Of a stretch of 64,000 nt of DNA, positions 8,992 through 10,971 are shown in pieces. The stretch spans positions 1,790,308-1,854,307 of the forward strand of contig CANKZG010000001.1 of NCBI GenBank assembly GCA_947488435.1, in the 5' to 3' direction. The notes beneath the pieces were generated by a model, which worked only from the letters and a program-made list of their open reading frames with translations, was not told the DNA's origin and made no database searches. The translations under genes and the position numbers were made by a program. Source of the DNA: an uncultured Flavobacteriaceae bacterium. GTDB taxonomy: Bacteria; Bacteroidota; Bacteroidia; Flavobacteriales; Flavobacteriaceae. Every line of letters begins with the position of its first letter. The stretch's first letter is position 1.

Positions 8992-10971
8992 TTGATACAT
9001 AAGTCAACCATAGATCGTGTTTATGAGACTGCCCGCTTAGAGGAGGTTATTGGAGACTTTGTTCAATTGAAGAAATCAGGAGCCAATTTTAAAGGGTTAA
9101 GTCCATTTTCAGATGAGCGAACACCAAGTTTTATGGTTTCTCCAGTAAAACAAATCTGGAAGGACTTTAGTAGCGGTAAAGGCGGAAATGTGGTTGCATT
9201 TCTAATGGAACACGAACATTTTTCCTATCCTGAGGCTATTAAGTATTTAGCCAAGAAATATAATATTGAAGTAGAGGAAACGGAGCAAACCGACGAGCAA
9301 AAAGAAGCTGCAAATGAGAGAGAAAGCATGTACCTTGTGTCAGAATACGCCCAGAAATACTTTGCTGATGTTTTGTGGAAGGAGGATTTAGGGAAAGCTA
9401 TTGGATTAAGTTATTTTAAAGAAAGAGGATTTACCGATGATACCATAAAGAAATTTGGATTAGGTTATGGACTCGATCAATGGGATGCATTTACAACTAC
9501 CGCATTAAAAAATGGATATCAATTAAAATACCTAGAAAAAACCGGCTTAACCATTGTTAAGGAAAATACAGGAGTTCCTGAAGGAAGCAAGAAATTTGAT
9601 CGTTTTAAGGGAAGAGTGCTTTTCCCCATCCACTCGATGAGCGGAAGAGTATTAGGATTTGGAGGTCGTATTCTTACAAATGATAAAAAGGCGGCAAAAT
9701 ATCTAAACTCTCCTGAGAGTGATATTTACCATAAAAGTAAGGTGCTCTATGGCATTTATTATGCAAAACAAGCCATTGCGAAAGAAGATAATTGCTATTT
9801 GGTTGAAGGATATACCGATGTCATACAATTCAATCAGCGCGGTATAGAAAATGTTGTAGCGTCAAGTGGAACAGCACTTACCCCGGATCAAATACGATTA
9901 ATTAATAGACTGACTACGAATATCACTGTTTTGTTTGATGGAGATGCGGCCGGACTTAGAGCTTCATTACGCGGTATCGATCTTATTTTAGAACAGGGTA
10001 TGAATGTGCGCGTATGTACCTTTCCAGAAGGAGAAGATCCAGATAGTTTTGCAAAAAACAATGCGTACGAAGATGTTATCGCCTACTTGCAAGAACATGC
10101 TAAGGATTTTATACAATTCAAAACATCTTTACTAGCAAAAGAAACAGCTAATGATCCTATTAAAAGGGCAGATACGGTTAGAGATATTGTAAATAGCATA
10201 GCTAAAATACCGGATCGTATCAAGCGTGAAATTTATATCCAGGAATGTGCCGGGATAATGAATATTTCTGAAGCGGTTTTGTTTAATACGTTGGCTCAGA
10301 TCACCAAAAAGGAGAAAGCGGACAGTGCTAAGGAAACAAGAAAAGAGCAGAAGGCCTTTGCGGTTGTTAAAAGTGAATTGCCACAGGTAAAAGTTGACGT
10401 GCAATACGAATTGGAGCGTAAAATTATAGAGATTTTACTGCTCTATGGTCCGGTAATGCAGGAGTTTGAAGATTTAATTTTAAAGGAAAATGAAGAAGGA
10501 GATTTGGTTTTAGAACCAGAACTTTTGGAGACCAAGGTGTATGAGAAAATATATCTCGATCTTCAGGAAGATGAAATAGAATTAACGCACGAGCAATTTA
10601 AAACGATATATTATCGTCTTATCGAAGCCTTAAATGAAACCGAGGATTTCTCGATCTCCAAATTCATTTCAGAACTCGATCAGCAACTAGCCAATGAGAT
10701 ATCCTCAATCCTAATGGAAGAGGAAAAATATACCTTGCACAATTGGGAGCGTAAAGACATTTTTCCAAAAGAGAAAAATAGTGGGGTAGCACAATTGGTT
10801 AGTGAAACAATTCTTACGTTGCGTTGTTTTTTAATTAAAAAAAGAATTCTTGTACTACAGGAAGATACGCAGGAACCAAGTTCAGAGAATGCAGAAACTT
10901 TGGAGGAAATTATGAATTACTTGCAATTGAATAAATTGTTGAGTAAGAAACTTAATCGGGTATTGTCTTAA
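8992..10971 (+). CDS. dnaG: DNA primase
   Basis: Makes RNA primers for replication and partners the DnaB helicase. The 659-residue protein has the N-terminal CHC2-type domain (about 1-100), the TOPRIM catalytic core (VEGYTDVIQFNQRGI, then VLFDGDAAGLRAS) and a helicase-binding C-terminal domain. The TTG start yields the usual MI-HKSTIDRVYETA beginning. The zinc site is odd: the four CHC2 ligand positions are S37, S40, D58 and S61 (in GLSPFSDERTPSF and KDFSSGKGGN) instead of Cys-His-Cys-Cys, although the surrounding residues are conserved. A strong terminator follows. Confidence 0.97.
   Translation: MIHKSTIDRVYETARLEEVIGDFVQLKKSGANFKGLSPFSDERTPSFMVSPVKQIWKDFSSGKGGNVVAFLMEHEHFSYPEAIKYLAKKYNIEVEETEQTDEQKEAANERESMYLVSEYAQKYFADVLWKEDLGKAIGLSYFKERGFTDDTIKKFGLGYGLDQWDAFTTTALKNGYQLKYLEKTGLTIVKENTGVPEGSKKFDRFKGRVLFPIHSMSGRVLGFGGRILTNDKKAAKYLNSPESDIYHKSKVLYGIYYAKQAIAKEDNCYLVEGYTDVIQFNQRGIENVVASSGTALTPDQIRLINRLTTNITVLFDGDAAGLRASLRGIDLILEQGMNVRVCTFPEGEDPDSFAKNNAYEDVIAYLQEHAKDFIQFKTSLLAKETANDPIKRADTVRDIVNSIAKIPDRIKREIYIQECAGIMNISEAVLFNTLAQITKKEKADSAKETRKEQKAFAVVKSELPQVKVDVQYELERKIIEILLLYGPVMQEFEDLILKENEEGDLVLEPELLETKVYEKIYLDLQEDEIELTHEQFKTIYYRLIEALNETEDFSISKFISELDQQLANEISSILMEEEKYTLHNWERKDIFPKEKNSGVAQLVSETILTLRCFLIKKRILVLQEDTQEPSSENAETLEEIMNYLQLNKLLSKKLNRVLS

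Follow-up and report, generated by a model that had tools for sequence, protein, structure and literature searches.

The window, a stretch of 64,000 nucleotides from the genome of an uncultured Flavobacteriaceae bacterium, carries a dnaG gene (8992..10971; this and all features below lie on the forward, +, strand) that encodes a DNA primase of 659 amino acids with a TTG start and was identified with TIGR01391 and Pfam domain profiles. The whole-protein TIGR01391 score is 421.7 bits against a cut-off of 283.6, and the Pfam domains follow in their usual order: Zn_ribbon_DnaG, DNAG_N, a Toprim-type domain and DnaB_bind. The N-terminal domain (PF01807, residues 3-97; 8998..9282) is zinc-ribbon-like in its profile score (96.5 bits, cut-off 24.9) and in its predicted fold, and its zinc ligands are absent. 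The catalytic core (DNAG_N, Toprim and DnaB_bind, residues 138-427; 9403..10272) is defined by Pfam profiles, with PF08275, PF13155 and PF13662 all scoring over their cut-offs. An A+T-rich leader precedes the TTG start at 8992. PF01807 has one match in the window genome, the window DnaG itself, and no second, zinc-binding copy was found beside the zinc-less one. A single match was also found in 13 of 15 other genomes with a zinc-less DnaG, so that the zinc-less form has no spare paralog there, and for the window genome we reject the possibility that it is itself a spare copy.

In an alignment to the DnaG structures PDB 1D0Q and 2AU3, with no gaps in this stretch, the Cys, His, Cys and Cys positions are occupied by Ser37 (position 1, codon AGT, 9100..9102), Ser40 (position 2, which is a free position, codon TCA, 9109..9111), Asp58 (position 3, codon GAC, 9163..9165) and Ser61 (position 4, codon AGC, 9172..9174). 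This confirms in full what the sequence-only reading had noticed, namely that all four ligands are missing, that their spacing (3, 18, 3) is intact and that the TPSF (44-47) and KGGN (63-66) motifs are retained. Three further residues will matter below: Met48 (9133..9135) and Ser60 (9169..9171), which comparison of 425 DnaGs marks as a hydrophobic position of zinc-less forms and as a glycine in zinc forms, respectively, and Lys57 (9160..9162), which aligns with a lysine of A. aeolicus and a histidine of B. stearothermophilus. The Cys-His-Cys-Cys set of the CHC2 zinc finger (PF01807) is lacking, and the domain is a member of PF01807 by descent and predicted fold and not a zinc finger by its ligands. 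A sequencing error at the four codons is ruled out, since ligand-free DnaGs make up 135 of the 425 aligned rows and come from separate assemblies.

The earlier suggestion of a family-wide trait agrees with every member read, the ligands being absent from all 7 genomes of the same GTDB family, and aligning DnaG across relatives, as had been proposed, carries it well beyond. Group rates were taken from evenly drawn samples, with one DnaG counted per genome. In the same order, 60 genomes were drawn and 51 read, 4 of the other 9 giving no match; 37 of the 51 DnaGs lack the ligands, and these are spread over 12 of 15 families, of which f101 has both states. In the same class, 139 genomes were drawn and 128 read, with no match in 3 of the remaining 11; here 27 of the 128 DnaGs lack the ligands, from 14 of 61 families, and both states occur in five of these 14. 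The trait also reaches other phyla; the names Chlorobia, Verrucomicrobia, Alphaproteobacteria and Bacillota are used here as sample labels taken from the named central genome. Ligand-free DnaGs account for 30/30 read in Chlorobia (the class of Chlorobiaceae; 30 of 31 drawn, one with no match), 26/30 in the order of Hyphomonas (30 of 31), 4/30 in the family of Corynebacterium (30 of 31), 9/29 genomes in the verrucomicrobial class of Puniceicoccaceae (29 of 29, in 30 rows that include the paralog L363) and 9/67 in Alphaproteobacteria (67 of 67, made up of 7/65 plus two already known, G374 and G417). No ligand-free DnaG was found among 35 Bacillota read (the 30 best and 5 lowest of 98 genomes).

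A pattern scan of named genomes, restricted to G+C-rich wobble positions so as to skip most A+T-rich Flavobacteria, returned 66 stretches, of which 62, read in frame, are DnaG N-termini without ligands (L219 among them is cut at its start). The sources include Corynebacterium, Dietzia, Hyphomonas, Mucilaginibacter, Puniceicoccaceae and Opitutaceae as well as Chlorobiaceae. One stretch (L260, Blautia) was rejected as a chance match. L264 and L266 (Oscillospiraceae) and L273 (Verrucomicrobia) are CHC2-like genes without ligands (SKDS, SKDS and SRDT); they look like primase-like genes other than the typical chromosomal DnaG, possibly from mobile elements. Several other single observations were made along the way. 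Two phage primases, from Flavobacterium phage laban6-1 (L520) and Cellulophaga phage Ingeline_1 (L521), lack the ligands (SVDS and SVCS) and have a serine before position 4; both phages have Flavobacteriia-type hosts. A match was present in 181 phage records, of which these 2 were read, over 120 codons from base 301. Methylobacterium bullatum (L523, NZ_LR743510.1), a named alphaproteobacterial zinc-less case, has S-N-C-S at the ligand positions of a DnaG N-terminus in a record labelled plasmid. In Corynebacterium wankanglinii (L208), a short fragment at G371:C1:1799301-1799426 matches residues 1-40 of the DnaG query with 98% identity; its frame of 61 codons lies some 1.6 kb away from the complete dnaG. 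The DnaG N-terminus of Acidobacteria bacterium Ga0077551 (L243) is nearly identical to the Hyphomonas type, so this contig may be mis-binned. Finally, the dnaG of one CHCC genome (L151, G249:C1:956100-958000) consists of two overlapping frames, a frameshift in either the gene or the assembly.

The ligands are lost together, and what replaces them is regular. The 425 aligned DnaGs are a non-random set, which includes best-scoring matches leaning to CHCC, 35 Bacillota and one paralog (L363) and leaves out the named loci from the pattern scan; within it, 290 have lost no ligand, 79 have lost three and 56 all four, and none has lost one or two; the passage from one state to the other may therefore be rapid, or the intermediates may be of low fitness. 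Among the 135 zinc-less DnaGs, position 1 is nearly fixed (S 134, T 1), position 2 varies freely (T65 S28 K14 N11 V8 A4 H3 G1 Q1), position 3 is one of two residues (C76 D59) and position 4 is nearly always a hydroxyl residue (S95 T39 A1). Residue 60, between ligands 3 and 4, is glycine in 286/290 zinc forms and serine (131) or alanine (4) in the zinc-less ones, and residue 48 is hydrophobic in 116/135 zinc-less versus 34/290 zinc forms. The pattern S37 / any residue at 40 / C or D at 58 / S or A at 60 / S or T at 61 recurs across several phyla.

The coupling of residue 60 to the zinc state also holds between independent lineages. Over 15 independent, well-supported pairs, residue 60 changes on average with the zinc state in 15.0 and against it in 0.0 (median p 6.1e-5), and a hydrophobic residue 48 goes with the zinc-less state in 8.9 of the same pairs versus 0.1 against (p 0.004). 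These two rank first and second among 787 tests over residues 3-430, and of the 15 tests with a median p below 0.13, 14 fall within residues 20-72 and the remaining one at residue 418. With Bonferroni correction over the 787 tests, residue 60 survives narrowly (0.048) and residue 48 fails. Residues 20 (p 0.013) and 71 (p 0.039) reach no more than nominal significance, and coupling at residues 29, 34, 36, 51, 54 and 56 was rejected, as they differ in raw counts but have a median p above 0.05 in the independent pairs.

How often the zinc was lost was addressed with a tree of the DnaG core (residues 112-430, with the N-terminal domain excluded). At least 15 state changes are needed if the tree is reduced to branches with support of at least 95; the number is 27 with a threshold of 90 and 38 if the whole FastTree is used, which has 420 rows, five of the 425 having been dropped because their core is too short. 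For 112 chosen Bacteroidia rows, a quick IQ-TREE search gives a tree with 19 changes, and a single zinc-less clade in Bacteroidia is rejected on the core tree (AU p 5.8e-9, 33 chosen rows), both Bacteroidia tests being quick searches under one model with hand-chosen rows. That the zinc-less state is ancestral is not favored, given CHCC in 35/35 Bacillota read and in the structures 1D0Q and 2AU3, the tree being unrooted. Compared between phyla, the rest of the zinc-less domain resembles its own group's zinc forms more than the zinc-less domains of other groups in 104/105 rows (Bacteroidia 59/59, Corynebacterium family 4/4, Alphaproteobacteria 33/33, Verrucomicrobia 8/9); Chlorobia, where no zinc form was sampled, stand outside this comparison. 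This argues against transfer between phyla, and loss in place is the most likely course, judged from sequence relationships, at least in Bacteroidota, the Corynebacterium family, Alphaproteobacteria and Verrucomicrobia. Several phyla thus appear to have lost the primase zinc separately and to have ended with nearly the same substitute residues.

Within Bacteroidia, true losses could instead be few, and much of the spread could come from a zinc-less 5′ portion of dnaG that moved by horizontal transfer or recombination. In the six families with both states, compared with the ligand columns and residues 48 and 60 excluded, 9/9 zinc-less domains are nearer to a zinc-less domain of another family than to a zinc form of their own, as such transfer would have it. 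This comparison, however, pits many foreign rows against few own-family rows, convergent compensation would give the same result, and in two rows the excess is small (f66 L042, 0.73 vs 0.76; f101 L195, 0.72 vs 0.73). We regard predominant transfer as a possible but rather doubtful account of the spread. Since convergent compensation and exchange of the 5′ end of dnaG fit alike in Bacteroidia, we claim no exact number of losses.

The ligand-free domain appears to be folded and maintained. In an AlphaFold2 model of residues 1-435, made with the window sequence and 28 named-locus sequences, the mean pLDDT is 92; of the first nine blocks of ten residues, the first scores 85 and the other eight 91-94. 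The model's N-terminal domain superimposes on that of zinc-bound 1D0Q at 1.0 Å over 92 columns (Foldseek) and at 1.5 Å over 99 residues with Z 17.1 (VIA-align), and the model matches DnaG core structures with Z 32-37; AlphaFold2 places no metals and tends to impose a family fold, and the model of the window DnaG is metal-free. Furthermore, with ligand columns and residues 48 and 60 excluded, mean identities in the domain and in the core are 0.82/0.78, 0.76/0.63 and 0.67/0.55 in three zinc-less clades, and 0.76/0.76 and 0.70/0.68 in two zinc clades. The earlier proposal that the domain keeps its fold is thus supported by the predicted structure, 1.0-1.5 Å from 1D0Q, together with a domain more conserved than the core in the three zinc-less clades. 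The accompanying proposal that contact with the template is kept agrees with the conserved residues of the domain, and the contact itself may persist.

A domain that has lost its ligands might also be a decaying relic, in a primase that runs mainly on its catalytic core. The higher conservation of the domain than of the core in three zinc-less clades is the reverse of decay, and seven residues (G30, P38, E42, P45, S46, V49 and G65) are invariant in 135/135 zinc-less DnaGs. In family f106 of the same order, where genomes are 0.3-0.6 Mb, the domain persists without ligands in 5/5 read. The loss of the ligands is the point in favor of the relic reading, which is hardly credible.

We consider it probable that in this genome's only DnaG the template-reading zinc-ribbon domain has been demetallated and yet kept folded. 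Ser/Thr hydroxyls, with Asp or Cys at 58, would cap the two knuckle turns, and hydrogen bonds among these side chains, and from them to backbone amides, would stand in for the zinc-sulfur bonds. The gap would presumably be filled, and the packing completed, by Ser60 and the hydrophobic residue 48. The domain could then still offer TPSF, Lys57 and KGGN to both the template and the RNA polymerase domain, and priming would continue without zinc. Hydroxyls are poor zinc ligands. The only nearly fixed side chains at the four ligand positions are the hydroxyls at 37 and 61, and we judge it very improbable that the ligand-free site still holds a metal, whether a different one or one bound through other ligands such as Asp58, hydroxyls or His40 where present. 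Asp does occupy position 3 in 59/135 and His40 is kept in 3/135, as a metal site might require, but Asp58 is missing from 76/135, and 13/135 have V, A or G at position 40. Counting against a zinc-free reading in general, the zinc ribbon of zinc-binding primases is stated to be essential for function, in the accessible part of a study of the C. difficile enzyme (PMC5204125).

The same part of that study reports that a lysine, not a histidine, beside the zinc ligands of the C. difficile primase favors CCC over CTA (PMC5204125), and Lys57 is taken to be this Lys/His position tied to trinucleotide choice. Residue 57 does not simply track the zinc state; it follows ancestry in two groups and varies in two. 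In the Bacteroidota locus set it is K in 58/58 other zinc-less and 124/146 zinc DnaGs, and in the Corynebacterium family it is H in 4/4 zinc-less and 26/26 zinc DnaGs. The Hyphomonas order has H 15, K 7 and F 4 among zinc-less forms and H 4 among zinc forms, and Verrucomicrobia have K 6, Y 2 and H 1 among zinc-less and H 11, K 9 and R 1 among zinc forms. Zinc may then be a replaceable staple, with site choice seated in a surface common to both forms.

A further possibility is that these lineages shed zinc generally, DnaG being one of many such proteins. PriA, a zinc protein that also serves primosome assembly and the sole protein compared, has its zinc ribbon (PF18319) in 21/26 genomes with a zinc-less DnaG, including the window genome, where the ribbon cysteines are in place, and this speaks against a general shedding. 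The 5/26 genomes in which PF18319 was not found, and in which zinc may be spared more widely, are two each from the Corynebacterium family and the Hyphomonas order and one from f106. For the first two groups (G371, G389, G374 and G422) that amounts to 2/2 and 2/2 genomes, in line with zinc economy; PF18319 likewise had no match in the control genomes Caulobacter vibrioides and Corynebacterium glutamicum. Zinc-free ribosomal proteins are known, as far as the available part of one source goes (PMC3087516), which also agrees with zinc economy, an explanation that we nevertheless judge improbable for the zinc-less DnaGs.

We tentatively put forward a broader idea, in which the template-reading domain of DnaG is a two-state fold, either zinc-held (CHCC with Gly60) or hydroxyl-held (S-x-[C/D]-[S/T] with Ser60). 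Bacteria would have flipped from the first state to the second at least a dozen times through the same co-dependent substitutions, which would imply that zinc was never needed for priming chemistry or for site choice and was only an interchangeable staple. If so, the flip may shield priming from a shortage of zinc or from the oxidation of thiols. Families f3, f8, f50, f66, f73 and f101 contain both zinc-less and zinc-bearing DnaGs and offer natural test pairs. Zinc-less DnaG would also bound the reach of antibacterials that eject the primase zinc, which should spare the window's family, Chlorobia and Corynebacterium.

In the accessible portion of a review, the primase zinc ligands are described as highly conserved (PMC6163395). 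We found no description of a zinc-less DnaG in the open PMC literature, among the matches listed and at the level of titles and abstract openings; this is weak evidence of absence, as subscription papers and preprints were outside its scope. Zinc-free forms are already known for ribosomal proteins and glutamyl-tRNA synthetase, and zinc-less DnaG is surprising in its breadth and regularity.

In the U-box, salt bridges and hydrogen bonds replace zinc. This zinc-less treble-clef has likewise lost its chelating residues within a zinc-finger fold group, according to the part of the source available (PMC4999995), and differs from the DnaG domain in belonging to a different fold group. The putative zinc domain (pZBD) of glutamyl-tRNA synthetase is likewise kept without its zinc motif in many bacteria, and a zinc-free GluRS domain works in an E. 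coli chimera; the enzyme is unrelated, however, no fixed signature of replacement residues is described in the accessible part of that paper, and some bacteria have deleted the domain (PMC4381286). The C-minus ribosomal proteins, such as S4, also offer a core information-processing protein with zinc and zinc-free forms across phyla, and in the part of the source available both S4 forms occur in 26/660 genomes and the zinc-free S4 gene has spread by transfer (PMC3087516). Zinc-less DnaG is unlike S4 in having a single PF01807 match in 13/15 genomes checked. The closest comparison is with the DnaGs of B. stearothermophilus (1D0Q) and A. aeolicus (2AU3), with which the window DnaG shares domain order, ligand spacing, predicted fold and the TPSF and GG motifs, and from which it differs in having zero of the four ligands, Ser60 in place of Gly and a hydrophobic residue 48.
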